Shown: in pieces, positions 7,340-61,097 of the stretch
Position numbering within the stretch: the stretch's first letter is position 1
Layout: each line of letters opens with the position of its first letter
Assembly (NCBI GenBank): GCA_028865345.1
Contig: JAGWKL010000010.1
Location: 1-61,097 of the forward strand
DNA: 61,097 nt
Direction of reading: 5' to 3'
Source: Candidatus Omnitrophota bacterium
GTDB lineage: Bacteria; Omnitrophota; Gorgyraeia; Zapsychrales; Fredricksoniimonadaceae
Notes under the pieces: model-generated
Database searches by the model: none
Told to the model about the DNA's origin: nothing
The model's input: only the letters and a program-made list of their open reading frames with translations
Position numbers and translations under genes: made by a program

Positions 7340-8467
7340 ATGAAGATCATTTCCATTGCGAACCAAAAAGGCGGTTGCGGCAAAACCACAACGGCGATCA
7401 ACCTGGCCTCGACGCTTTCCTTCAACGGCCAGAAAACGCTTTTGATCGACCTCGACCCGCAGGCCCACGCCACCCTGGGTCTCAATGTGAATGACAACAA
7501 CAGCCTTTATAACTGCATCTCCAAGCTGACCCCCCATAAATTAAAGATCAAGGACATCATCCAGAAAGCCGGCAGGAGTTTTGACATCGTCCCTTCCAAC
7601 GTGCTGGTGGGGACGCTGGAACAGGAACTGGCGGACGAGATCGGCCGCGAACTCAAGTTGGTCGAGATCATCGATGAGATCAAGGGTCTGTACGATTACA
7701 TCCTCATCGACTGCCCGCCGTCCTTGGGGTTCTTGACCGTCAACGCCATCCGCGCCAGCGACGAGCTTATCATCCCCCTGGAAACCAGCCGCTTTTCCAT
7801 GCAGGGCGTCGACCATCTGATGGACATCGCCCATTTGATCCGCGAGAGGCTGGGCCATCCGGTGGGCGCCAAGGTGCTCGTCACCATGTTCGACTCCCGG
7901 CTGCGCCATTCCTTTACGATGCTGGGCAAGATCAAGGAGAAGTTTTCCGGCATGCTTTTTGACACCATCATCCACGTCAACGTCAAGCTCAAGGAAGCGG
8001 CCGTCATGGGAGAGGCCGTCATCAAATACGATAAATACTGCCGGGGCGCTAAAGATTATCTGGGCCTGGCCCGCGAGATCATGACCGCCGACCGCCGGCC
8101 GGTAGTCCCTGAAACCAGGTCCAAGCCCGAGGCGCCTGCCCGGCCGGAAGGCTATGAACCATCGCAGCGCATGCAGGAATTGATCCAGAAGGAGACCCAG
8201 GAGCTTTTAAAAGCAACAGCCTTCTGCCTCCAGGCGCCGGACGCCCGTTCCGTTTATGTGACGGGCTCTTTCAATGACTGGTCGCTGGATGAGAACTGCC
8301 GCATGGCCAACACCGACGGCACCTGGCGCCTTTCCCTGTCCCTCAAGCCGGGGACCTATAAATACCAGTTCATCGTCGACGGCAAATGGCAGGAAGACCC
8401 GGCCAATGCCAACATGGAACGCAATTCTTTCGGGGACATCAATTCCCTCATCGAGGTCAAGGCCTGA
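7340..8467 (+). CDS. ParA-type ATPase fused to a CBM48/AMPK-type glycogen-binding domain
   Basis: A 375-aa fusion. Residues 1-250 are a ParA/Soj ATPase: deviant Walker A KGGCGKTTT (10-18), switch LIDLDPQAHATLG (35-47), and YILIDCPPSLGFL (120-132). A Pro/Glu/Arg-rich linker (255-275) follows. Residues about 293-375 match the E-set glycogen-binding module found in AMPK-beta and branching enzymes: SVYVTGSFNDWS, then GTWRLSLSLKPGTYKYQFIVDG. ParA ATPases position DNA or large complexes on a surface; a polysaccharide-binding tail suggests positioning of glycogen-like storage, which is inference. No parB is adjacent. A ribosome site AGGAGAA precedes the ATG. Confidence 0.85.
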   Translation: MKIISIANQKGGCGKTTTAINLASTLSFNGQKTLLIDLDPQAHATLGLNVNDNNSLYNCISKLTPHKLKIKDIIQKAGRSFDIVPSNVLVGTLEQELADEIGRELKLVEIIDEIKGLYDYILIDCPPSLGFLTVNAIRASDELIIPLETSRFSMQGVDHLMDIAHLIRERLGHPVGAKVLVTMFDSRLRHSFTMLGKIKEKFSGMLFDTIIHVNVKLKEAAVMGEAVIKYDKYCRGAKDYLGLAREIMTADRRPVVPETRSKPEAPARPEGYEPSQRMQELIQKETQELLKATAFCLQAPDARSVYVTGSFNDWSLDENCRMANTDGTWRLSLSLKPGTYKYQFIVDGKWQEDPANANMERNSFGDINSLIEVKA

Positions 8468-8484
8468 GGTCTTGCGCCGGTCCT

Positions 8485-25907: not shown

Positions 25908-28900
25908 ATGAAGAACGCCCCATTGTTTTTCAGGACGTGGACATCCTTTATCGTCTCGTCCGCCTTTCTGCTCAATTCCTTTGGCCCTATTTGCCCTGTT
26001 GCCTGTTCGGCAGAGGGTACATTTCGTTTGCCGGCGCCCGGCGTCATGGTCCATTTAAGCCCGCCGTTCGATCCGCCTGTTCTTAAAGGCATTAAGGTCT
26101 ATGCCGCTGATCCGTTCAGGTTTGATTTCATACTCGATCCGGGTGACAGCGATGAAAGCACAAGTCAACTGAAGGAAGAGTCCGGCAAGTTGATCAAATA
26201 TTTCCTGACCGCCCTGACCATACCTGAGAAAGACCTATGGGTCAACCTTTCCCCGTATGAGAAGAACCGCATTATTCCCCAAAGTTTCGGCTTGACCGAA
26301 ATGGGCCGGGACCTTCTGGGGGAAGATTACATGCTTAAACAGATCACCGCGTCGCTGATATATCCCCAGGGCACAACAGGCAGAAAGTTTTGGAAGAAGG
26401 TTTACGAGGAGGCCCAAAAGAAATATGGAACAACCGATATACCGGTCAATACTTTTAACAAGGTGTGGATACTGCCCCAAAAGGCCGTCATTTATGAAAA
26501 TACCCGGGCGGGGACGGCCTATGTCGTGGAAGCAAAACTGAAAGTGATGCTGCAGCAGGATTATTTGTCCCTGAAGGAACATGAGGGGATAGGAGGTATC
26601 GTCCCCCCCGAAGAAAAACAGACCAGCCAAATCGGCAGCCAGGTGGTGCGGGAGGTGGTGATCCCTGAGTTGACCAGGGAAGTCAATGAAGACAAAAATT
26701 TTGCGCTGCTCAGGCAGGTTTACAATTCCCTGATCCTTGCCACCTGGTATAAGAAAAAAATCAAGGACAGTCTCCTGGCCAGGGTGTACGAGGACAAGAA
26801 CAAGGTCGCGGGTGTCAATGTCAATGATCCGCAGGAGAAAGAGAAGATTTATCAGCGCTACCTGGAGGCATTCAAGAAGGGGGTTTATAACTATATCCAA
26901 GAGGACGTCGATCCGGTCACGCATGCTGAGCTCCCCAGAAAGTATTTTTCCGGAGGGGTCGTTTTGGATTTGGAAGAAACCAATGTCAATGCGGGCAATG
27001 TCCTGCAGATGGTACACCGTGTTCCGGACGCTGCCATGCTGGGGCCCCGGGACCGAGGGATGGTCGTTGAGGCCGACATCGGCCCCGCGGACCAGGCGAT
27101 GGCCGGCGGTCCTCTTGAAGAGGCAAAGAAGAAGATCACGGATCTTGCAGACGGCCCCCTGGAGGGACGTCCGGTTTCCTATTTTGTTGATTGGATGAAC
27201 GGCATTGCCGATGCGGTCACCAGCCGGCTGTCGCAGGAGGATCTGAATTCCTTGGCCGTTCAACTCATTGAGAGTCCCAATGAACACATCACCAACCTGA
27301 TACAGAAGAAATTGGAAGGCGAAGCGCGCACCATCGCCAAATACAGCCTTTCGTTTTATAAAAGCCTGCCCCAGGACGGTAAAATCAATGTCTATCTTTT
27401 CAGGGACGCTCTTACGTTATATACGGCACAACGTACGGTGGGGACCCAGCCTCTGGCGATGGCTGTGTCCAAGGCTTCCGTGGGGATGAGTGTTTATCTG
27501 GCTGTCAAGGCCCTTATCGAAGAGTCCAAATTACGCGTGGGTTTGGGGCCGGCTTCGGAAATCCCCAAGAAAGATTTCCGGAAGTTTAAGGCGGAATTCT
27601 TTAAGTTATTCGACGCATTGATCAATGACAAGCCCATTGGGGAGATCAAATCAGGCAATACCATGATCACGAAGTATGCCCAAAACCTTAAGACGGCGAC
27701 GGACCGTTTATCGGCCTATGCCGGTCAAATCGGCCTGACCCCAGCCCTTATGAACGACCGGGGGGTGCGTTTTATCGATACCACCATGCAGGGGGCGCTG
27801 GTCCTCTTGATGGAGGCGGTGGCGCGCCAGATGATGAAAAAGGCGGGATTGAGTGAAACCCAGATGAAGGACAAGACCTCCAGCCGGATGTTTTACAGCT
27901 TTTTATCCCCAGCCTTGAGTTTTATAAAGATCAAAGACAGCCATCTTTCCCGCGCAACCGAGTTTTCAGGGTTACCGTTTAATATCAAAGAAAATAATTG
28001 GGCCCATCATGAGCCTTTGATGCATGTGCCCCACATGTCCGGATCCCAGGATAGAAAAAAATTCTTATTTTTCATGGTTGCTTTAAAAAATGAATTGCTG
28101 AAATTGGAGAACCCTCCCCCGCAGGACCGCCAAGGGGCGGGGTTTTTTGATCCCTCACTTTACAAGGAAGCGCAAGACATGCGGCAGGCCCGTCTCTCCG
28201 GGCAGCGTATGCCCAAAGGCTTTTGGGACGATGAGAGAATGGCCGCATACAGCGTGTGGGCGGCATTGGATACGATCCCGGGGTTCAAGGAAGCGCGCCA
28301 ACACAACGACATCAGGGAGATGGCAGGGTTGTACCGCAAGTACGTGATGGAGTATAAATCAAAAAAAGAAACAGGCCAGAACAACGGCCAGACGGCTTTT
28401 TTTCGTGAAGTCGGGAAGTTAGGCGGGATGATGCGCAGAACCCGGGCCTATTTGGACAAGGCCGACAGCGCGGCCTCATTATTGCGCTTTGCTTTGCCGG
28501 GCTTGGTCGATGGGGCCAATCCGGATGCCCTGGACCCTCTGGAAGTGGAATTGAATTATTGGAGCGATCCCGAGAACGTCAGGCGGCACATTTATCAGGC
28601 GCTGGATACAATCCCCGGGTTTAAGGAGGCGCGCCTGCACAACGACATCAAGGAAATGGCAGGGTTGTACCGCAAGTACGTGATCGGGTATAAATCCAAA
28701 AAAGAAGCCGGCCAGAACGGCCAGATAGCTTTTTTTCATGAAGTCGGAGTGTTAAGCGGGTTGATGGATTCCACGGTACATTTAGACAAAACCAACTCTC
28801 CGGCCTCATTATTGCGTTTTGCCTTGCCGGGTTTGATCGATGGGGCCAACCCGGATGCCTTGAACCCCCTGGAAGTAGAAATCAATTATTGGAGCGATCC

Positions 28901-30893
28901 CGAGAACGCCAGGCGGCATATTGATCAGGCGCTGGATACAATACCCGGGTTTAAGGAGGCGCGTCAACACAACGACATCAAGGAGATGGCCCAATTGTAC
29001 CGCAAGTACGTGATCGGCTATAAATCAAAAGTGAATATCAACAGGAACGGTCAACTGGCTTTTTTCACTGAAGTCGGGGGTTTAGGCGGTTTGATGGCCA
29101 ATCCCCAGACTTATTTGGAAAAAATGAACAGCGCGTCGTCGGTATTGCGTTTCGCTTTACCGGGCCTGATCGACGATCAAAATCCCGATGCCTTGCATTC
29201 CAATGAGGTTGAAAAATTTCCAAGTGACCAGGCAATGACCCATGGGAACAAACCCGCCGCCCAAGAATGGGAGGGCATTGAAAAGTCCAGGATTTTAAAT
29301 GCCGGTCCGCACGGGGCAGCAATATTGAAGAAATTGATTGAACATGGAGTGGTCAGTGAAATTTCCGGTGACAGGGTGCTGGCCAATACGGATTTAAAAT
29401 ACCCGGCTGCCGTGCAAGAGATCATCGATGAGGCCGGAGGAGACCCCGGCGAAGCCGGGATCATTGAGGCTGCTCTGTCCCAGTCCCAATTGATGCAGGA
29501 ATATGCTCCGATCCTGAAAATCCTTCCTGTTGTGCATGTCTTTCTTTACCCTTTTCAGGCGGGAGAAGTTTATCAGAGCGATGCGTTTTCTTCGTTAAAG
29601 ATCCGGGAGTTGCTTCAGGAAGGAAGATTGGAGGTGAGAAAAAGCCCTCAAACCTGGCTGCAATTATATTGGAAACCCGGTGAAAGAAACAAATGGGCTT
29701 TGGAAAAGCAGGAAGAGGTCGATCAATGGAGTTCCATCCCGCAAGGGAAATCCGATTGGCTCAGCTTCAGGAAATCCGTTAAAGTGGAAGTCGGGTATAG
29801 CGCCTATGTGATTTCGGTCAAAGACGGGAAAGTAAGATTTGAAAGCAATGGTTTTCAACCGGAAATCAAAAGCCTTTCCCTGAGAGAGTTCCATGAGATA
29901 GGGGATGCGTTCATGTTTCGGGTCGATGAGGAAGAGGCAAAGGGCAATTATAGAATGTATTTCCACAGTCAAAATCAACCTGCCACCCTAAAATGGGAGG
30001 CCGTGCCGGACTCTTCCAATATTTTGGGGGTGTTCAGACAGCCTGTAAATTTAAGAAAGACATTCGGAATGGTCGACAGGACGCAAGGGTTGTCCACCCT
30101 GGTCAGCGGCAGCGGTCCGGCATTGAGAGAAGTCTACAATGTCATAAGACACCGGGTCAATTTTAGAATGGAATTTTGGAAAAGCATCAGGGCATCCCAA
30201 GGCAGGGAGAAGGTCGAAGCCTTTTTGGCGGATGCCCTTAAAGAGGGGAATAAAGCCCTGGCGTATTATAAAATGAGCAAAGAAAACTCAAAACCTACGG
30301 TCCTTAATGTCGATCTTGCCGCTGTCTGGCAGGATAGGCAAGGCCGTCAATACGCGACAATCGTTTTTGAAGGCAGGAACCGGATTTATCTGCTCAAGAA
30401 ATCCGGAAAACTGACAGCCTACACACATGAAGAAAATACGGGAAAGATCACCATTGCGGTTGATGAAGGGGATTCCGTGATCATGACATCAGGGATCCCT
30501 GCCTTTGAAAAGGACCTTACTTTTGAAGATGATACGCCTACAGGTATCGCGGAGGCTGTTTTGAGTAAGAAATGGAATAAACATGTCAATGGTTCATTCC
30601 CGGGGGTCGTTGTTCTAAAGATTTTAGAGCCCGGAGGGGTTCCAAAGACAGACCAGGCGATGATGACCCCCAAGAGCCAGAACCCGGGCGGTATCGACCT
30701 GACTGCAGGGAACATGAATTTGCAAATCAAGGGAAACGGCGGGGCGGGGATCAGATTTCATCTTGATGCCTTCACGCTGCAGCAACTCCGGGATTTGCCA
30801 GGATTTACTCCGGTCAAAATCAATATCAGGCCGTTGACGGACCTTCGCAGGTTCTTAGGGATCCGGGAAAATCCGGCGGCCGACGCCCCGTGA
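25908..30893 (+). CDS. Giant modular secreted protein with shared terminal domains and three internal repeats
   Basis: A 1661-aa protein of unknown function. A hydrophobic N-terminus (about 8-35) looks like a signal peptide. Residues about 40-355 form a domain (LPAPGVMVHL, LIKYFLTALTIPE, WVNLSPYEKNRII, PVNTFNKVWILP, PRKYFSGG) shared with the 31458 protein. The middle is helical; residues about 786-1103 hold three tandem repeats of about 110 aa. The end (about 1590-1655, GGIDLTAGNMNLQIKG, PGFTPVKINIRPLTDLR) is also shared. DQAM motifs mark several domain borders. I recall such proteins in Omnitrophota genomes; the role is unknown, perhaps in the cell envelope. Confidence 0.8.
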   Translation: MKNAPLFFRTWTSFIVSSAFLLNSFGPICPVACSAEGTFRLPAPGVMVHLSPPFDPPVLKGIKVYAADPFRFDFILDPGDSDESTSQLKEESGKLIKYFLTALTIPEKDLWVNLSPYEKNRIIPQSFGLTEMGRDLLGEDYMLKQITASLIYPQGTTGRKFWKKVYEEAQKKYGTTDIPVNTFNKVWILPQKAVIYENTRAGTAYVVEAKLKVMLQQDYLSLKEHEGIGGIVPPEEKQTSQIGSQVVREVVIPELTREVNEDKNFALLRQVYNSLILATWYKKKIKDSLLARVYEDKNKVAGVNVNDPQEKEKIYQRYLEAFKKGVYNYIQEDVDPVTHAELPRKYFSGGVVLDLEETNVNAGNVLQMVHRVPDAAMLGPRDRGMVVEADIGPADQAMAGGPLEEAKKKITDLADGPLEGRPVSYFVDWMNGIADAVTSRLSQEDLNSLAVQLIESPNEHITNLIQKKLEGEARTIAKYSLSFYKSLPQDGKINVYLFRDALTLYTAQRTVGTQPLAMAVSKASVGMSVYLAVKALIEESKLRVGLGPASEIPKKDFRKFKAEFFKLFDALINDKPIGEIKSGNTMITKYAQNLKTATDRLSAYAGQIGLTPALMNDRGVRFIDTTMQGALVLLMEAVARQMMKKAGLSETQMKDKTSSRMFYSFLSPALSFIKIKDSHLSRATEFSGLPFNIKENNWAHHEPLMHVPHMSGSQDRKKFLFFMVALKNELLKLENPPPQDRQGAGFFDPSLYKEAQDMRQARLSGQRMPKGFWDDERMAAYSVWAALDTIPGFKEARQHNDIREMAGLYRKYVMEYKSKKETGQNNGQTAFFREVGKLGGMMRRTRAYLDKADSAASLLRFALPGLVDGANPDALDPLEVELNYWSDPENVRRHIYQALDTIPGFKEARLHNDIKEMAGLYRKYVIGYKSKKEAGQNGQIAFFHEVGVLSGLMDSTVHLDKTNSPASLLRFALPGLIDGANPDALNPLEVEINYWSDPENARRHIDQALDTIPGFKEARQHNDIKEMAQLYRKYVIGYKSKVNINRNGQLAFFTEVGGLGGLMANPQTYLEKMNSASSVLRFALPGLIDDQNPDALHSNEVEKFPSDQAMTHGNKPAAQEWEGIEKSRILNAGPHGAAILKKLIEHGVVSEISGDRVLANTDLKYPAAVQEIIDEAGGDPGEAGIIEAALSQSQLMQEYAPILKILPVVHVFLYPFQAGEVYQSDAFSSLKIRELLQEGRLEVRKSPQTWLQLYWKPGERNKWALEKQEEVDQWSSIPQGKSDWLSFRKSVKVEVGYSAYVISVKDGKVRFESNGFQPEIKSLSLREFHEIGDAFMFRVDEEEAKGNYRMYFHSQNQPATLKWEAVPDSSNILGVFRQPVNLRKTFGMVDRTQGLSTLVSGSGPALREVYNVIRHRVNFRMEFWKSIRASQGREKVEAFLADALKEGNKALAYYKMSKENSKPTVLNVDLAAVWQDRQGRQYATIVFEGRNRIYLLKKSGKLTAYTHEENTGKITIAVDEGDSVIMTSGIPAFEKDLTFEDDTPTGIAEAVLSKKWNKHVNGSFPGVVVLKILEPGGVPKTDQAMMTPKSQNPGGIDLTAGNMNLQIKGNGGAGIRFHLDAFTLQQLRDLPGFTPVKINIRPLTDLRRFLGIRENPAADAP
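28263..29216 (+). repeat. Three tandem coding repeats of about 110 residues
   Basis: Copies start at 28263, 28599 and 28929 (periods 336 and 330 bases). Each opens with ALDTIPGFKEAR, then HNDI.EMA.LYRKYV..YKSK, a FF.EVG..G stretch, LLRFALPGL(V/I)DGANPDAL, and ends with NYWSDPEN.RRHI. Copy three degenerates at its end. The nucleotide similarity is high, which suggests recent duplication. Confidence 0.9.
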
Positions 30894-30981: not shown

Positions 30982-31055
<74 letters not shown>

Positions 31056-31089
31056 CTTTTTAAACACCAAGAGCCTCCTGCCTGAACTG

Positions 31090-31457: not shown

Positions 31458-34379
31458 ATGGTCCGACGTTTGATTGTCCTACTGGTTTGCCTTTCCTTTA
31501 TTTTGGGCAATCTTCAATATGCTTATGCCCTGCCCGGCACAGCGGCAGGCGGAGGCTTCAGCATCAATCAGCTGCCCGCGCCCGGCGCCATGGTGGGGGT
31601 TTCCGCCAAATTTGCGCCGGTGGCTTTGAAGGGGCTGGTCGTCGACCCTCAAAAGCCTCTGGAATTGCGGTTCATCGTCGATACGGGCAGCGATGCCGCG
31701 TATGCGCAAGCGCCGGCTACGCAGCAGCCTGTCAGGGCGCAAATCGACCGCTTGGTCAAATATTTTCTGGCCGGTTTAACGATCCCCGACGGAGACCTGT
31801 GGGTCAACCTTTCCCCGTATGAAAAAGACAGGATTGTCCCCAAGACCTTAGGACAAACAGGGCTGGGGCGGGATTTGCTGGCCCAGGACTATATTCTTAA
31901 ACAATTGACGGCTTCGCTCATCTATCCTGAAAGAAAATTAGGCGAGGAATTCTGGAGCAGGGTTTACGCTAAAGCCGAAAAGCTGTTCGGGACGACGAAC
32001 GTCCCTGTCAATACCTTTAATAAGGTATGGATTTTGCCCAAGGAGGCCCAGGTCTTTGAGCATGGCAATGCCGTTTATGTCACTAAGGCAACGCTCAAGG
32101 TCATGCTGGATGAAGATTATCTGGCTCTCAAGGACCACAGGGCCGTCACCAACCCGTCTGCCGGAATATCCTCCAGGATCATGCGTAAAATCGTACTTCC
32201 TGAAATTGAAAAAGAAGTCAATGAGGGAAAGAATTTTGCGCCGTTGCGCCAGATTTATCAGGCTTTGATCCTGGCGAAATGGTACAAGCAAACCGTCCAA
32301 AACGGGCTGTTGGATGCCGTTTATACGGACCGGCGCAAAACCATGGGGATCAATCTCCTTGACCCCGCGGTCAAAGAGCAGATCTACCGGCGTTATCTTC
32401 AGGCGTATAAAAAAGGGGTGTTTGATTATGTCAAGGAGGTCCCGGCCCGAGACGGCCGTGCCGTACCCAGGAAATATTTTTCAGGAGGCACCTCCTTCAG
32501 CGGTATCAAGCTGGAAACAAACGGTACGGCAGCCCAGGAGCGTCCTGACGGGGCCATGATCAGCGCAACGGTGGACCTGGAAAAAGCGCCTGATCTTGCC
32601 ATGGCCTCAACGAATGAAAAAATCCTTGATCTTATCAATGATTTGAAGTCGCATGGCGTTGTGCCGGCGATCCCAGGAAAGGATCTGTCGGTTTATGACA
32701 ATCCGGCGAAATTGGTCAATTATATCCGGCAGCATGGCATTATAGAAAACCCCGACGATATTGCCAGGGTATTATCGTGGCGCCTGCAGGTCCAGGAAGG
32801 GCATCCTCCCTTATCGGGCATCAGCGGTCAAAGCGTGCTGTTTTTATATGATTCTCTTTTTGCCCCGGATTTTTCTTTGGCCATGGACCGGATCAGGAAG
32901 GCGGGGTTCGTGGTTTCCGGCGGGAACCTGATCCCTAAAGCCAATGAACAACAGGACAAAGAGCGGGCCAATCTGGGGCTTTTTAATCAAGATCCCAGGG
33001 TAATAGCGTTGATCAAGGAATTACAACAACCGGAGGAATGGGACAATATTGTGCAACGCGGCGCTTTTGTGTTTGACGTGGATAAAACACTGCTTCCCAG
33101 GGGCAGCAAGGGATTGAAGGAATATGCAAGGCTGGCGTCCTTGTTCGCCGGACTTATGCGCGCAGGGGTAAGGGTGGTCATTATTTCCGGCAATTCGTGG
33201 AGCGAGCAGATGAAAAGGATATACCTGCCGATAGAAGCACAAATGGCGCCGGGGGAGAGCCTGACCTTTTATGTCAATGAAGGAGCAGAAAAGATCACCA
33301 TCGATAAGTCCAGGGGCGGTGCTGTGTTGGAAGAAACATATAATGTCGCCCATGGCATGGATGCCCATGTCATCCAGAAGGCCATCGATGAGACTTTACA
33401 AGAAATGGCTCAGGATAATTTTGGATTGAGCCCGCAACAATTGACGGCGTATAAGGAGGCGCTTGAAGCGTATCGCCAGAAGAGTTATGAAACGCTGCAT
33501 TTTGAGATGCCATGGGAGAACAAGGGCGCCTGGAAGCCCCAATGGGTGACAGAGGAAGAAGTGCAACGGGAAGAACAGGCGACGGCGACCGTCAGTGTGC
33601 CCTGGATTGGCGAGAGGGGCCGGATTTCCAGGCACGGAAAAGAGTTCTTTGCCAGTTTGGCCATCAAACCGACCCCGGTTTTCGAATTTAACGGGCAGAA
33701 GATAGATGTGCGTCCGGTCATCCAACGGCATATTGTGGAAAGATTAAGACAGATGGGACAGGACCCTGATCGGTTTGAATTAAGGTCCGGGGGATCGACC
33801 ACAACGGATATTACGCTCGCCAATGCGGATAAACCTGAGGCCCTGGCGGATTTTATAACAGCCAACGGATTGGACCCCCGCTGGGTCTTTTATTTGGGGG
33901 ATGAATTTTATGTCCGCGAGGGCAGATACAGCAATGATGAGCCGATCGCCCGCGAGGCCCGGGTTGCCGGATCCGCCCTGGATGGCGTGCGCACCCTTGC
34001 CGTCAACGAGAACAATATAGAGGGATCGCAGGTGGCCTATTGGATCGGCCGCACCCCGCAGGCGACCGAAGAATTCTTAGAGCAGGTTGTGCCCGACACC
34101 GCCAAGACAGGAGGCGCGCTGCCGGCCGAAGAGCTTCACAAAGACGCTGCCGCCCCACCCTCGGCAGAGGCAACCAACGGCGGTATCGATCTTGATCAAA
34201 TTCATGTCAGGCGCTACGGCAGGTCCGTGATGGTCCGGTTTGACCCGGCCCGGTTGCGCGAACTTCGCCGGGGAGGGTTCGAAGGGTTTACGCCCGTTAT
34301 TGTCAATATCAGGCCGTTACAAAATTTTCTTAAACCGTCTTTGGGAACTGCGGGCAGGTATGAATCAGACCCAGGCTAA
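31458..34379 (+). CDS. Secreted modular protein with an HAD-phosphatase domain
   Basis: A 973-aa protein with a signal peptide (about 1-24). Residues about 38-345 repeat the N-terminal domain of the 25908 protein. Residues about 535-890 look like an HAD hydrolase: motif I FDVDKT (Asp540, Asp542), motif II VVIISGNS, a cap region, and motif IV-like FYLGDEFY, with KIDVRPVI and GSTTTDITLAN between. The C-terminal domain (GGIDLDQIHV, GFTPVIVNIRPL) is shared with the sister protein. ATG 31458 follows TTGGAGGAG. The 3' end overlaps ligA by 20 bases. The substrate is unknown. Confidence 0.8.
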   Translation: MVRRLIVLLVCLSFILGNLQYAYALPGTAAGGGFSINQLPAPGAMVGVSAKFAPVALKGLVVDPQKPLELRFIVDTGSDAAYAQAPATQQPVRAQIDRLVKYFLAGLTIPDGDLWVNLSPYEKDRIVPKTLGQTGLGRDLLAQDYILKQLTASLIYPERKLGEEFWSRVYAKAEKLFGTTNVPVNTFNKVWILPKEAQVFEHGNAVYVTKATLKVMLDEDYLALKDHRAVTNPSAGISSRIMRKIVLPEIEKEVNEGKNFAPLRQIYQALILAKWYKQTVQNGLLDAVYTDRRKTMGINLLDPAVKEQIYRRYLQAYKKGVFDYVKEVPARDGRAVPRKYFSGGTSFSGIKLETNGTAAQERPDGAMISATVDLEKAPDLAMASTNEKILDLINDLKSHGVVPAIPGKDLSVYDNPAKLVNYIRQHGIIENPDDIARVLSWRLQVQEGHPPLSGISGQSVLFLYDSLFAPDFSLAMDRIRKAGFVVSGGNLIPKANEQQDKERANLGLFNQDPRVIALIKELQQPEEWDNIVQRGAFVFDVDKTLLPRGSKGLKEYARLASLFAGLMRAGVRVVIISGNSWSEQMKRIYLPIEAQMAPGESLTFYVNEGAEKITIDKSRGGAVLEETYNVAHGMDAHVIQKAIDETLQEMAQDNFGLSPQQLTAYKEALEAYRQKSYETLHFEMPWENKGAWKPQWVTEEEVQREEQATATVSVPWIGERGRISRHGKEFFASLAIKPTPVFEFNGQKIDVRPVIQRHIVERLRQMGQDPDRFELRSGGSTTTDITLANADKPEALADFITANGLDPRWVFYLGDEFYVREGRYSNDEPIAREARVAGSALDGVRTLAVNENNIEGSQVAYWIGRTPQATEEFLEQVVPDTAKTGGALPAEELHKDAAAPPSAEATNGGIDLDQIHVRRYGRSVMVRFDPARLRELRRGGFEGFTPVIVNIRPLQNFLKPSLGTAGRYESDPG

Positions 34380-36886: not shown

Positions 36887-37786
36887 ATGAAAGAATTCAT
36901 CGATGATTTCATGGATTATCTTTCCGTCGAGCGCGGGCTGTCCCCCAATACCATTTTGGCCTACCGCCGGGATCTGAACAAATACATCGATTATCTTTCC
37001 CGAAAGGGCGTTCAAAAGGCCCCGCAGGTCAACCGTGAGCATGTTTCTGCGTTCATGTTGGACCTCAAGAAACATGACATGTCGCCGGTGAGTATTTGCC
37101 GGAATTTGGCGGCGGTCAAAATGTTCCACCGTTTCCTGGTGCGGGAGAATTTGAGCAAGGAGGACCCCACGACCCTGGTGGACACGCCGAAGCTTTGGAA
37201 GAGGGTCCCGTCGGTGTTGACGTTAGGGGAGATCGAGTCGATGATCGCGGCCGCGGCGGGGCGGAAGGTCCAGCAGATCAGGGACCAGGCGATATTGGAG
37301 ATTTTTTATGCCAGCGGCCTGCGGGTCTCGGAATTGTCGGATTTGAAGACGGACAGCGTCAATTTCGACGTGGGGTTTGTGCGCGCCGTGGGCAAAGGAG
37401 CCAAAGAGCGCATCATCCCGCTGGGGCACAAAGCGCGCGAGGCCCTGCAGAAATACCTGCAGAAGGCACGGCCCCGGTTGCTGAAGGGCCGGGCCGGGGG
37501 GCAGGCCGATGATTCCTTGTTTTTGAGCCGGCTGGGCAAAAAGATCAGCCGGGTCAGCTTGTGGTCCCTGATCAAATCGTACGCGCGCAAGGCCAATATC
37601 AAGAAAGAGATCAAGCCCCATACGCTGCGCCATACGTTTGCGACCCATTTATTGGAACACGGAGCGGACCTGCGTTCGGTCCAGGAAATGCTGGGGCATG
37701 CGGACATTTCCACCACACAGATCTATACGCATGTGGACAAGGAACGTTTGAAAAGCGCGCACAAACAGTTCCATCCGAGGGGATAA
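36887..37786 (+). CDS. xerD: Tyrosine recombinase XerD/XerC type
   Basis: A 299-aa recombinase, the usual length for Xer proteins resolving chromosome dimers. The SAM-like DNA-binding domain is at 1-85. All catalytic residues are visible: Arg146, Lys170, His245, Arg248, His271 and nucleophile Tyr280. The position among housekeeping genes and the lack of a nearby att site point to Xer rather than a phage integrase. XerC versus XerD cannot be settled by eye. Confidence 0.88.
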   Translation: MKEFIDDFMDYLSVERGLSPNTILAYRRDLNKYIDYLSRKGVQKAPQVNREHVSAFMLDLKKHDMSPVSICRNLAAVKMFHRFLVRENLSKEDPTTLVDTPKLWKRVPSVLTLGEIESMIAAAAGRKVQQIRDQAILEIFYASGLRVSELSDLKTDSVNFDVGFVRAVGKGAKERIIPLGHKAREALQKYLQKARPRLLKGRAGGQADDSLFLSRLGKKISRVSLWSLIKSYARKANIKKEIKPHTLRHTFATHLLEHGADLRSVQEMLGHADISTTQIYTHVDKERLKSAHKQFHPRG

Positions 37787-57911: not shown

Positions 57912-58276
57912 TAATCTTTGTCTTCGCGGGGTTTTTGGTCGTTACGGCGCCTGCTCAGGTTGTATTCTATGTTTTTGATGGTGCCGCGCAGCCTGGCATT
58001 GTGGTTGATGAGGTTGAGCACTCCCAGGGAAATCAATATCAGCAGCATGATGGCCAGTATGGTGCCGTAGTCCTGGACCAGCAACAGCTGGGCGACAATG
58101 TCATTTTGAGGGACATCAAAGCCGGTGTAGATGATTTTCAGGCCGATGATAAAGGCCAGAATAAAAATGATGAAGAGGATGATCTGGAAGAATATGATAT
58201 AAAAATGGCGGCCCATCCACTGGCCGGCGCGGTTGTCCCATTGCCTGATTTTGTAGAGCAGATCATTCTGTCCCAT
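57908..58276 (-). CDS. Two-helix membrane protein, unknown
   Basis: A 122-aa protein without a recognised family. Two membrane segments at about 24-48 (HFYIIFFQIILFIIFILAF) and 66-90 (LVQDYGTILAIMLLILISLGVLNLI), then a basic tail (RRRNDQKPRED). It converges with ftsA, and its stop overlaps the ftsA stop by three bases. GGGA-type ribosome sequence is not obvious upstream. Confidence 0.6.
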   Translation of the reverse strand: MGQNDLLYKIRQWDNRAGQWMGRHFYIIFFQIILFIIFILAFIIGLKIIYTGFDVPQNDIVAQLLLVQDYGTILAIMLLILISLGVLNLINHNARLRGTIKNIEYNLSRRRNDQKPREDKDY

Positions 58277-58326
58277 AGGCGCTTCTTATTTTAGGGGGGA
58301 CCTTGGGCGTTGCCAAGATTTATTTT

Positions 58327-58836
58327 ATGAATCTAAGAAGCCTGACTTTCATCCTGTTGTTTTTAAGTTTGCCGGCCCTCTCCGGATGCATTTCGCCGCC
58401 GGGGGTCAGCGGGACCCTGGGTTACAGCCGCGAGCGCCGGGTGGTCATCGTCGGGGAGAGGGTCCCCACGGACATCGCGTTGTATTATCAACGCAGATAC
58501 AATGCCATGGTGTGGTTTACGCCGCCTCAGGGCCGACTCAAGGATTGGGCGCATAGAACCCTGCAGTTGGGGCCTTCCCAGGCCATGAGATCGCTTATCA
58601 ACGAGCTTGAAAGCACTGATTACACCATGGGCCGCTGGGAAATCATCGTCCCCGGCATGGCGGAGAAGTATGTGCTGGCGACACTCAAGCACATGATGAC
58701 AGGTTCCCTGTCCCATGCCTGGGGGGACTTTGTGCTGATCGACTCCAAAGGCAACAAGGCCATCGAAGCCCAGGTTCAGCGCGTCACCGGCGGCAGTTTT
58801 TTTGTGTCGTATGAATTTCAGAAGTACCGATATTAA
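58327..58836 (+). CDS. Hypothetical lipoprotein
   Basis: A 169-aa protein with a lipoprotein signal ending in LPALSGC (Cys21). The mature part is mixed alpha/beta with no family recognised (MVWFTPPQGRLKDWAHRTLQ, YTMGRWEIIVPGMAEKYVL, DFVLIDSKGNKAIEAQVQRVTG). TTG 58303, preceded by GGGGGGA, would add eight residues and cannot be excluded. It is divergent from the 58276 gene. Confidence 0.6.
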   Translation: MNLRSLTFILLFLSLPALSGCISPPGVSGTLGYSRERRVVIVGERVPTDIALYYQRRYNAMVWFTPPQGRLKDWAHRTLQLGPSQAMRSLINELESTDYTMGRWEIIVPGMAEKYVLATLKHMMTGSLSHAWGDFVLIDSKGNKAIEAQVQRVTGGSFFVSYEFQKYRY

Positions 58837-58907
58837 GGAAAAAGTCTCGCTTTGCGAGGCGCGCCTGGCCGCTTCTCTGGAATAAGAATTAAGGTAGCGG
58901 CACATTC

Positions 58908-58959
58908 GGCGCAAACCTTTCTGAATAAAATTTTGATTGGTTTGTGGTAGGTTTGCGCC
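58908..58959. repeat. 11-bp perfect inverted repeat touching a tRNA fragment
   Basis: GGCGCAAACCT (58908-58918) and AGGTTTGCGCC (58949-58959) are perfect reverse complements with a 30-base AT-rich loop. The right arm includes the first bases of the partial tRNA-Arg copy. Confidence 0.7.
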
Positions 58960-58974
58960 TGTAGCTCAACCGGA
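58952..58974 (+). repeat. Partial copy of the tRNA-Arg 5' part
   Basis: These 23 bases are identical to 59034-59056, covering three bases upstream plus the acceptor 5' strand and D arm of tRNA-Arg (GCGCCTGTAGCTCAACCGGA). Similarity fades after that, so it cannot fold as a tRNA. It lies 82 bases upstream of the real gene. Confidence 0.85.
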
Positions 58975-59036
58975 AAAGGCCCAATGGCTTTGCTTGGCGT
59001 AAGCTCTTTTTAATGAGGGGTGGGATTAATGTCTTT

Positions 59037-59110
59037 GCGCCTGTAGCTCAACCGGATAGAGCATTAGTCTTCGGAACTAAGGGTTAGAGGTTCGAGTCCT
59101 CTCAGGCGCG
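59037..59110 (+). tRNA. tRNA-Arg (anticodon TCG)
   Basis: A 74-base cloverleaf: acceptor GCGCCTG/CAGGCGC, D arm GCTC/GAGC, anticodon stem TTAGT/ACTAA with loop CTTCGGA (anticodon TCG, reading CGA), T arm AGAGG/CCTCT with loop TTCGAGT, discriminator G. No CCA encoded. Its 3' part is repeated at 60066. Confidence 0.95.
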
Positions 59111-59146
59111 TTTTATTCCGGGGGACGGGAACTCAAGGAGGCGGGC

Positions 59147-60068
59147 ATGTCCAAAACTTTGAAAGCGAGCGGTCAGAAAACCGCAAGATGCTGTGTGTGC
59201 GGGCAGGCCGGTTTTTTCCATCCATTCCAAATTTTGCCTGACCCACTCCCGCCTTGCCTTTCGCATGAAAATAAGAAGATTTCCGCCTCAAGCCATTGAG
59301 GCGGTGTGGAAGTATATACGCGCCCATGGCGACAATTGTTATTTCACCAAGAGGCCCCTTGAGATGGATGACACCAAAAGCCCCTGGTATTGCGTTTTCG
59401 ACCATTTGATACCCCTTGACCCAAGGACGATCGTGCTGACGTCCGCCTTGATCAATACGATAAAATCCGCCCTTTCCGAAGACGAGTTCTGGTATATGAT
59501 CGAGCAATTGGATGATTTTAAGCGCAAGGGCAAGAAGATAAAGAAAATCAATTTGGCCCATTGGAGACAGCATGTGTTTGCCTCCAAAAAAGAAGGCCTG
59601 CCTTACAAGAAGCGCCCGATTTGGCCCCACCCCCAGGACAAAAAATGCGATATCTGCGGCCGTCCGGTCTTCAGCCTCCAGTCCAAGTACTGCCTGAGAT
59701 GTTCACACTTCAACTGGCGGATGGAACACAAAGGGTTTTCGCCCGAGGCCATGGAAGCCGTACGCGAGTACTTGCGCGCCAACGGCTATGTGTGCGCATT
59801 GACCGGCCTACCGCTGGAAATGAAAGACGACAGAAGCCCGTGGTACTGTGTTTTTGACTATTTGGTCCCAGGAGACAGGTCCAGTCTGATCGTCACCTGT
59901 GCGTTATTCTGCGAGATGAAATCAGACCTGACGATTGAGGAATTCTGGTATTACATCAGGCAATTGGCCGATCATAAAAGGTACGGTACCCCTTTCAGAA
60001 AGAGAACGCCGCACCATTGGTGCAGGCTGACGGCCCAAGAGCTGCGTATGAAAAACCTGCGGGATTAA
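59147..60068 (+). pseudogene. Tandem HNH-like nuclease gene with a one-base frameshift
   Basis: AAGGAGG and ATG 59147 start a frame reading MSKTLKASGQKTARCCVCG that stops 50 codons on. The frame from 59193 continues the protein; one extra G in the run at 59200-59203 (TGCGGGCAGG) explains the break. The restored protein has two similar halves of about 140-150 aa: a C-x2-C...C-x2-(H/C) zinc knuckle, then C(Y/A)(F/L)T..PLEM, SPWYCVFD(H/Y)L(I/V)P, and a K.(A/D)L..(E)EFWY.I.QL part. The first half keeps DH...IN...K as in HNH nucleases; the second has DY and FC, so it looks inactive. The TAA stop is supplied by a tRNA fragment. A sequencing error is possible. Confidence 0.6.
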
Positions 60069-60098
60069 GGGTTAGAGGTCCGAGTCTTTGCGGCGGAG
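60066..60098 (+). repeat. Partial copy of the tRNA-Arg 3' part (att-like)
   Basis: Bases 60066-60086 match 59078-59098 of tRNA-Arg at 20 of 21 positions (TAAGGGTTAGAGGT, then CGAGTC), with weaker similarity to 60098. The pair of direct repeats brackets about 970 bases with the HNH-like gene, as expected for an element inserted at the tRNA 3' end. No integrase gene is inside. Confidence 0.75.
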
Positions 60099-60119
60099 TT
60101 CTATTAGTCGGTCGAGTTG

Positions 60120-60233
60120 AAAATCCGAACTTTTCGGAATATGGCCCCAGTTATTAATCGTAGCTGGGGCTTTTTAATCGGTTACCTGTTCCAATATAAT
60201 GAGTTATGGTTTATGAGGAAAAGTTCGGATTTT
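60120..60233. repeat. 16-bp perfect inverted repeat around a terminator
   Basis: AAAATCCGAACTTTTC (60120-60135) and GAAAAGTTCGGATTTT (60218-60233) are perfect reverse complements with 82 bases between. A third, direct copy of the core (TCCGAACTTTTTG) lies at 60261-60273. The enclosed part holds an intrinsic terminator. Could be the ends of a small element or paired protein-binding sites. Confidence 0.7.
60144..60175 (+). terminator. Intrinsic terminator
   Basis: GCCCCAG (60144-60150) pairs with CTGGGGC (60164-60170), followed by TTTTT. It would stop transcripts coming from the tRNA-Arg/HNH region. Confidence 0.85.
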
Positions 60234-60508
60234 AGGGGTGACCGAGGGGTCAATTGCCAGTCCGAACTTTTTGTTAAGAGTATAGAATTGTATTTAAAAG
60301 AAGCAAATGGACAGCAGAAAGACGGCTCAAACTGATTGTCAAAAGTCTATAGTAAAACAAAATGGCCCAAGCCTTTTTTATTGTGCTTTTACGAAAAACC
60401 GTTATTATAAATCATTAAAGCTATCTGATTCCCCCATTCAGATTAATTATAAATTCCCCCGACGTGTAAATTTTTATAACCCATGCCTGAATGGGGAGGA
60501 GGGTATTA
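60234..60508. other. AT-rich noncoding stretch before the BRO gene
   Basis: No gene is supported here. It has a TGACC/GGTCA hairpin (60240-60253) and, near the end, CCCCATTCAG (60432-60441) facing CTGAATGGGG (60487-60496), the latter joined directly to the AGGAGG ribosome site (60497-60502) of the next gene. If the arms pair, the ribosome site is next to a stem. Short frames here lack ribosome sites and family features. Confidence 0.5.
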
Positions 60509-61097
60509 ATGGACAAGAATTTTACCGTTTTTGAACAACATAAGATCAGGCGTCTTTACGACGAAAAGACAGATACATGGTATTTCTCGGTTGTGGATAT
60601 TATCCAGGTATTGATCCAGAAACAGGATTATAAAGCCTCTCGAAATTATTGGAAGGTGTTGAAAAACAGGCTGGTCAAGGAAGGCAGTCAGGTGGTTACA
60701 AAATGTAACCAACTGAAATTGGAGGCCGCAGATGGCAAGAAATATTTTACTGATGTTGCCACAGCCGAAACGCTTTTACGTCTAGTTCAATCTGTCCCAA
60801 GCCCCAAAGCTGAGCCTATCAAGCTGTGGCTGGCTAAGGTAGGCTATGAGCGCATGCAGGAAATGGCAGACCCTGCACGTTCGCTTGACCGGGCACGGGA
60901 AACCTGGAAAAAACATGGGCGCAGAGAAAAATGGATCCAACAGCGCATGATGGGTCAGGAGACTCGCAATAAGCTAACAGACTATTGGAAAGACCATGGG
61001 ATCAAGAAAGAAGATGAATTTGCCATATTGACTAATATTATACATCAGGAATGGTCAGGGATTTCTGTACAGGCACATAAGGGGATCAAAGGTCTTA
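60509..61097 (+). CDS. BRO-family phage antirepressor-like protein (3' end missing)
   Basis: An open frame from ATG 60509 to the right edge (196 codons visible). The ribosome site AGGAGG is ideal. The N-terminal Bro-N domain (FEQHKIRRLYDEKTDTWYFSVVDIIQ, DYKASRNYWKVLKNRL in shortened form, YFTDVATAETLLRLVQSV) is followed by the widespread SPKAEPIKLWLAKVGYERMQE and SLDRARETWKKHGRREKWI. Such proteins come from phages, prophages and mobile elements and act as antirepressors or damage-response factors. Marks the right end as accessory DNA. Confidence 0.85.
   Translation, partial: MDKNFTVFEQHKIRRLYDEKTDTWYFSVVDIIQVLIQKQDYKASRNYWKVLKNRLVKEGSQVVTKCNQLKLEAADGKKYFTDVATAETLLRLVQSVPSPKAEPIKLWLAKVGYERMQEMADPARSLDRARETWKKHGRREKWIQQRMMGQETRNKLTDYWKDHGIKKEDEFAILTNIIHQEWSGISVQAHKGIKGL

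Follow-up and report, generated by a model that had tools for sequence, protein, structure and literature searches.

A genus-specific family of HNH-type nuclease genes in Candidatus Omnitrophota that is enriched beside tRNA genes and may spread by homing

In the stretch of DNA analysed here (the window; 61,097 nt), a gene encoding an HNH-type nuclease lies behind an intact tRNA-Arg(TCG) gene and ends inside a displaced 3′ half of that tRNA. It is a member of a multi-copy family of freestanding genes that is specific to one genus; for this family we found both empty and filled sites, a tRNA remnant in three species, selection on the encoded protein and enrichment next to tRNA genes. Quite possibly, the family behaves as a selfish gene of the homing type that favours tRNA and tRNA-like genes.

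The window is contig C46 of a 2.14-Mb genome, labelled G000. It was compared with genomes of the same genus (G001-G005), whose matching contigs belong to Candidatus Omnitrophota MAGs. All of the genomes used are MAGs, several of them 51-70% complete, and only six carry the HNH family. The features of the locus are listed below.

58952..58974, + strand: 23-nt copy of the 5′ part of the tRNA, older than and outside the insertion (present in the HNH-free G003 and G002)
59036..59111, + strand: tRNA-Arg(TCG), intact, the left border of the cassette (ARAGORN; Rfam RF00005, 69.3 bits)
59147..59205, + strand: ATG of the true start, with the N-terminal zinc knuckle's first half (MSKTLKASGQKTARCCVCG...), out of frame with the remainder of the gene (translation compared with the G004 and G005 orthologues)
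59193..60068, + strand: principal reading frame of the HNH gene, opening with GTG, 291 aa (ORF listing; family searches)
59196..59564, + strand: domain 1, with an intact HNH motif (FDHLIPLD...ALIN.IK) and a zinc knuckle broken by a frameshift (profile match, 177.8 bits)
59640..60020, + strand: domain 2, with an intact zinc knuckle and a degenerate HNH motif (FDY for FDH, C for N; profile match, 181.6 bits)
60057..60105, + strand: displaced tRNA-Arg 3′ half that begins with the anticodon loop (score against shuffles; same place in G005, shortened in G004)

The earlier note, made from the letters of the window, had recognized a real tRNA-Arg(TCG) with partial copies on both sides, and this description holds. 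The upstream copy is identical to the 5′ part of the tRNA at all 23 positions (58952-58974 versus 59034-59056), and the match of 20 of 21 nt behind the gene proved to be the core of a longer one (60057-60105 versus 59069-59117; 76% identity over 49 nt). The 3′ copy scores 22.5, compared with a maximum of 13.5 among 100 shuffles, and occupies the same position relative to the stop codon in two relatives; by these measures it is a genuine tRNA remnant, beyond chance. A few other tRNA genes of the genus are indeed followed by short matches to tRNA ends (15-25 nt), and common tRNA-like noise had been named as a reading that would undo the proposal. Random similarity can nevertheless hardly be the source of these repeats, given scores far above those of shuffles, the same position in the orthologues of three species, and the comparison with an empty site.

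The two copies do not have a common history. The 5′ copy is also present in G003 (L156 4918-4938), with the same spacing (62 nt before the tRNA), and, in a shorter form, in G002 (L215 4908-4923); neither genome has an HNH gene at this site. It therefore predates the insertion and is independent of it, contrary to the original suggestion that it was part of the inserted unit, and the idea that the two copies represent the left and right ends of one element is ruled out. Both the 5′ copy and the tRNA are located upstream of the HNH gene, whose flanks are the tRNA and the 3′ remnant. The proposed element of about 1 kb on the 3′ side of a tRNA stands as an insertion, but not as one at an ordinary 3′-end attachment site: the 3′ copy begins in the anticodon arm and not in the T-loop or at the 3′ end. 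A search of positions 58000-61097 against Rfam gave no match to a group I intron (Intron_gpI).

Beyond the tRNA remnant, a perfect 16-nt inverted repeat, AAAATCCGAACTTTTC, was observed at 60120-60135 and 60218-60233, with a third, partial copy at 60254 (total span 60120-60271). It separates the remnant from a gene with a BRO-N domain (60491-61096; PF02498, E 5.6e-7), which is cut by the end of the contig. This gene had been cited as support for a mobile region; it is indeed adjacent, yet nothing ties it to the HNH unit.

The HNH gene of the window does not appear to be intact. The GTG at 59193 falls inside the zinc knuckle, and the frame that it opens misses the first knuckle cysteines, while the translation from the ATG at 59147 (MSKTLKASGQKTARCCVCG...) matches the starts of the intact orthologues of G004 and G005. 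Unless the assembly is in error, the comparison indicates a +1 frameshift around 59199-59206 (one extra base). The D-H and N residues are kept in domain 1 only, and this copy, being frameshifted, may be dead.

The environment of the tRNA gene provides a comparison of occupied and unoccupied sites. Upstream is a cell-division cluster, which from its ORFs we take to be ddl-ftsQ-ftsA, and in the relatives the tRNA-Arg(TCG) site is followed by gcvT-gcvH-gcvP-like genes. In G003 the site is empty, with 62 nt between the end of the tRNA and gcvT. The gap of G004 is filled exactly by an HNH gene (7542-8483), the sole gene there, and that of G005 holds an HNH gene together with small ORFs. Such an empty-site comparison had been recommended as a check on the insertion, and it bears the insertion out. 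The gap of G002 contains a TPR-type gene and no HNH gene, and that of G001 giant and TPR ORFs plus a decayed HNH gene at the contig end; the contig of G000 ends past the HNH and BRO genes, and its gcvT is placed on C10, behind other variable genes. The dS values of gcvT group G000, G001, G004 and G005, which are mutually closer, apart from the more distant G002 and G003; the simplest account would therefore be a single insertion into the tRNA-gcvT gap, in an ancestor shared by these four. The tRNA-Arg-gcvT gap collects other genes in other genomes and may be a general hotspot.

The junction between the gene and the remnant is precise. The stop codon of the HNH gene (TAA, 60066-60068) is located inside the remnant at 60057-60105, in agreement with the observation that the fragment supplies it. 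In the window as in G005 and G004, the remnant begins equally far ahead of the stop, and the codons that close the gene, S-L-R-D-stop, correspond to the anticodon arm of the tRNA, AGTCTTCGG(A/G)ACTAG. The gene ends read (i) ...K AGT CTT CGG GAC TAG GTG TTG GGG TTT in G005, (ii) ...AGT CTT CGA GAC TAA in G004, where the remnant is reduced to an anticodon-arm stub, and (iii) ...AAC CTG CGG GAT TAA GGG TTA GAG GTC CGA GTC in the window. Beyond the anticodon arm, the sequences of G005 and the window continue into the 3′ half of tRNA-Arg.

The remnants were also compared with the tRNAs of different genomes. That of G005 scores 23.0 and 21.5 against the uninserted tRNAs of G002 and G003, and 17.0 against its own resident tRNA; it is thus closer to the uninserted type, as expected of a displaced old 3′ half. 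The remnant of the window behaves differently (22.5 against its own resident tRNA, 14.0-14.5 against the uninserted type), and its resemblance to the resident tRNA requires later gene conversion or another history. The resident type is specific to the clade, yet it is also present in the outgroup G019, which has no HNH gene; its value as a clean marker of the element is weakened accordingly. These comparisons are only suggestive of an element that brought a new resident 3′ half.

A homing event that could have produced this arrangement may be outlined as follows. The nuclease would cut a tRNA gene in or near the anticodon arm, and the break would be repaired from a copy bearing the nuclease gene and a spare tRNA 3′ half. 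The tRNA would thereby be restored on the left, and the old 3′ half would come to lie on the right of the nuclease gene, providing its last codons and its stop. We infer that the protein cuts tRNA genes, that insertion is driven by this cutting and that the element brought the resident 3′ half; self-driven homing by the HNH gene is plausible.

The encoded protein consists of two copies of a 127-aa domain that combines a zinc knuckle with an HNH motif, and the family includes one- and two-domain forms. The domain follows the pattern CxxC...CxxC, then T..L......SPWY.vFDH..P.d..k.V.t.al.N.MK. Its FDH..P and N.MK elements are conserved over the family, so that the catalytic residues of an HNH (His-Me finger) domain are present. 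No Pfam or NCBIfam family matches the 127-aa domain above cut-off. Pfam HNH_4 gives weak matches, and PHROG 1035 ("endonuclease VII") matches 25 of the 29 family members (best 4e-9). An AlphaFold2 model of the domain (pLDDT 90) predicts two strands (69-74 and 83-87) and a helix (88-96) over the FDH...N..K motif. The best PDB neighbours found with Foldseek were the Gme HNH nickase and HNH domains of Cas9, and T4 endonuclease VII ranked lower; all E values were ≥0.19 and not significant alone. Taken together, the conserved motif and the model identify the predicted product as carrying an HNH-type (His-Me finger) endonuclease domain.

The domain was found in only one genus of Candidatus Omnitrophota, in which six of the seven genomes carry between 2 and 9 genes. 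Among 55 relatives searched, the family was found in six (G000-G005, all of this genus), and among 147 genomes of the class in the window's own only. A scan of 84,980 species genomes, at the sensitivity of two patterns, gave matches only in contigs of this genus; the contig scans used an 8-row subset, the 29-row family alignment being too diverse. No match was obtained in a phage search with the family, and a scan of viral contigs returned one match of 16 residues. The three orthologues at the tRNA-Arg site have dN/dS values of 0.22-0.28, which indicates purifying selection on the protein, and the dS of the HNH gene roughly parallels that of gcvT.

A repeat of about 60 nt (CCAGCCCTTGTAGATGAACGCAACGGTGGTTTTTCTCTGGTGCGGCGGTGGTTTCGC) accompanies some family members: five copies are present in an HNH gene array of G004 (C3; L088 4018-12841), and one directly follows the HNH gene on C35 of G000 (L070 8487-8547).

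Homologues at other tRNA genes, which had been suggested as a target for searches, were found. For seven of the 28 HNH family genes, the distance to a tRNA or tRNA-like gene is at most 200 nt, ten times expectation (0.67 expected, P 3e-6, under the assumption of uniform placement and with MAGs of incomplete tRNA sets pooled). A conservative count, which drops two of the three tRNA-Arg orthologues and all tRNA-like genes, leaves four of 23 (0.54 expected, P 0.002). The same gene without a nearby tRNA had been envisaged as a refutation; 19 of the 28 genes have no tRNA within 1 kb, but the association is far above chance. Searches of 15 HNH loci without a nearby tRNA against Rfam revealed no other adjoining RNA gene, except for a 5S rRNA about 2.6 kb upstream of the HNH gene of L078. 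HNH genes of different lineages were observed downstream of the 5S rRNA gene in G000 and G003 (L068 1-3291, L078 1-3583).

At the individual sites, the pattern is as follows. The tRNA-Thr(CGT) gene of G000 is separated from the preceding stop codon by 7 nt; in G003 a 1217-aa giant ORF and an HNH gene are inserted between the two, and in G005 the slot is occupied by a TauE-like gene. The two members of the tRNA-Tyr/tRNA-Gly(TCC) pair, with 9 to about 180 nt between them in relatives, are separated by about 11.6 kb in G004, where an HNH gene is located 79 nt before tRNA-Gly(TCC). An HNH gene precedes tRNA-Pro(GGG) in G001, and the same slot of G000 contains an integrase. At these three tRNAs (Thr, Gly and Pro) the HNH gene is upstream, and neither a displaced 5′ half nor a 3′ copy of the tRNA was found. 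In G000 and G004, tRNA-fMet is followed by variable genes, fMet 3′ fragments and an HNH gene. Apart from tRNA-Arg, few HNH genes adjoin a fragment of the same tRNA, namely those of the fMet sites (G000, G004) and of one Glu site. The latter (L073) was not counted as an HNH insertion, because the 51-nt copy encloses a nucleotidyltransferase/HEPN-like pair and not the HNH gene. This pair (L073 4469-5691; G001 C29), about 1.1 kb long and devoid of an integrase, is bordered by tRNA-Glu(CTC) on one side and, on the other, by a copy of that tRNA's 3′ part that is perfect over 51/51 nt, and represents a second very small tRNA insert.

In the tree of the family, the HNH genes of the G001 Pro site and of C47 of G000, the latter beside a tRNA-like gene, are sisters (support 100/100), and one HNH lineage thus occurs at unlike RNA genes. 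The copies of G003 C26 and G001 C31 are also sisters (99/98), and the three copies of the Arg site form one clade per domain.

It is improbable that the gaps beside tRNA genes are simply permissive landing places for a protein with a cellular job (e.g. in defence), the pattern reflecting hotspot ecology and not targeting. Such ecology would fit the different genes that fill the same gaps, including the TPR-type gene of G002, the TauE-like gene of G005, the giant ORFs of G003 and G001 and the toxin-antitoxin-like genes upstream of gcvT in G000 and G001, as well as the purifying selection on the HNH protein. However, passive landing does not explain why the gene end is fused to a tRNA remnant in three species, nor does it fit the strong enrichment within 200 nt of tRNAs; furthermore, one- and two-domain paralogues with decayed catalytic motifs typify selfish nucleases and not housekeeping genes.

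The combination of an intact tRNA with a displaced fragment is also the standard signature of islands, among which anticodon-centred sites are common (PMC4383910). A serious alternative, though a somewhat less likely one than homing, is that the tRNA/remnant pairs are the work of tyrosine integrases with the anticodon loop as their site, the HNH gene being cargo or the residue of an eroded island, or that small integrase-less islands were moved in trans. Tyrosine integrases adjoin tRNA genes in the same genus. One of them (G000 C1:36967-37640; L130) lies beside an intact tRNA-Arg(ACG), and an orphan 5′ half of tRNA-Arg(ACG), broken in the anticodon arm, is located at C59:11611-11650 (L140); the two are probably the ends of one island, the middle of which is unassembled. 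The exchange of integrase and HNH gene before tRNA-Pro(GGG), the HNH-free cargo at the tRNA-Glu of G001 and the several family members away from tRNAs point in the same direction. What speaks against integrases also leads us to favour homing: (i) no integrase was found near the tRNA-Arg site of the window or at this site in G003-G005, and, as the earlier note had it, the cassette has none beside it (on the window's contig, no PF00589 match is closer than the one at 37214, at a distance of about 21 kb); (ii) the unit of about 1 kb lacks an integrase gene, and in G004 the HNH gene is its only gene; (iii) in three species the stop of the HNH frame falls within the tRNA half; and (iv) one nuclease lineage adjoins RNA genes of different kinds, and can stand either before or behind the tRNA.

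Two further groups of genes were observed around tRNAs in this genus. The window contains two very long ORFs (26001-30869 and 31461-34328) that flank tRNA-Pro(CGG) (30982-31056). They belong to a multi-copy family with conserved ends (about 370 aa at the N terminus and about 48 aa at the C terminus), relatives of which adjoin several HNH genes and other tRNAs. In G004 (C31; L077 1420-1712) the anticodon loop of a tRNA-fMet is split by a small group I intron (RF00028, 57.4 bits, 1444-1639), after which patatin-like and nucleotidyltransferase genes resembling a CBASS-type defence set are found, together with fMet 3′ fragments.

We also noticed a tRNA-like RNA that ARAGORN miscalls as tRNA-Val/Gly. 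Its first five copies are located at the following positions.

L066 9813-9888, - strand: tRNA-like RNA
L068 2254-2328, - strand: tRNA-like RNA
L119 5000-5076, + strand: tRNA-like RNA
L144 5000-5074, - strand: tRNA-like RNA
L084 12764-12840, + strand: tRNA-like RNA

This RNA has a degenerate anticodon arm and its own AT-rich promoter-like region, and is followed by a hairpin with a loop complementary to the "anticodon" loop. In most copies there follow another promoter-like site, an antisense RNA of the D/anticodon arm that changes in step with the arm, and then a terminator-like hairpin. Strong covariance-model matches to it were obtained in many genomes of the taxonomic family, and three of the five first copies adjoin HNH family genes.

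Insertion into tRNA genes is usually credited to tyrosine integrases, and programs that search for islands drop elements that are shorter than 2 kb or devoid of an integrase. The more far-reaching proposal, that integrase-free mobile HNH genes cut tRNA genes at the anticodon arm, carry the mending 3′ half and have reached many tRNA and tRNA-like loci of the genus, is rather unlikely. Should a stand-alone HNH nuclease be able to settle at tRNA genes by homing, with the tRNA kept whole, a class of very small elements would have been filtered out of island surveys. The SegB case of phages and the mORF case of fungal mitochondria would gain a counterpart in bacterial chromosomes, and the family would provide a compact nuclease that may recognize tRNA genes as DNA.

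With SegB, a GIY-YIG enzyme, and the other freestanding homing endonucleases of T-even phages, the family shares the location of a freestanding nuclease gene beside tRNA genes. SegB cuts within tRNA genes, and its motif RAWTSGAAC (PMC13096335) may, in our own reading, be the reverse complement of the tRNA T-loop. Unlike SegB, the genes described here belong to an HNH/zinc-knuckle family of bacterial chromosomes, with a tRNA half left at the gene end. The T4 endonuclease VII-like PHROG 1035 and the Gme HNH nickase (PDB 4h9d) have in common with our domain the His-Me finger D-H...N..K, the strand-strand-helix order and zinc-binding Cys pairs; the present 127-aa domain differs in that it was found here only in one Omnitrophota genus and falls outside the Pfam and NCBIfam cut-offs.

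Islander-type tRNA islands likewise display an intact tRNA, a displaced 3′ fragment in the same orientation and an anticodon-centred junction (PMC4383910). The units of the window and G004, in contrast, are about 1 kb long and contain no integrase, and the Islander filters (2 kb minimum, integrase required) would discard them. The mORFs of fungal mitochondria, found in atp6 of Allomyces and in atp6, atp9, cox2 and nad3 of Glomus/Rhizophagus, consist of an endonuclease ORF within a host gene whose 3′ end is duplicated, the old 3′ end being displaced about 1 kb downstream (PMC3630166). The old 3′ end of the host gene is similarly located downstream of the endonuclease ORF in the window and G005, and as a stub in G004; here, however, the host gene is that of a tRNA and not of a protein, the nuclease is of the HNH type as opposed to the LAGLIDADG example, and the replicon is a bacterial chromosome.
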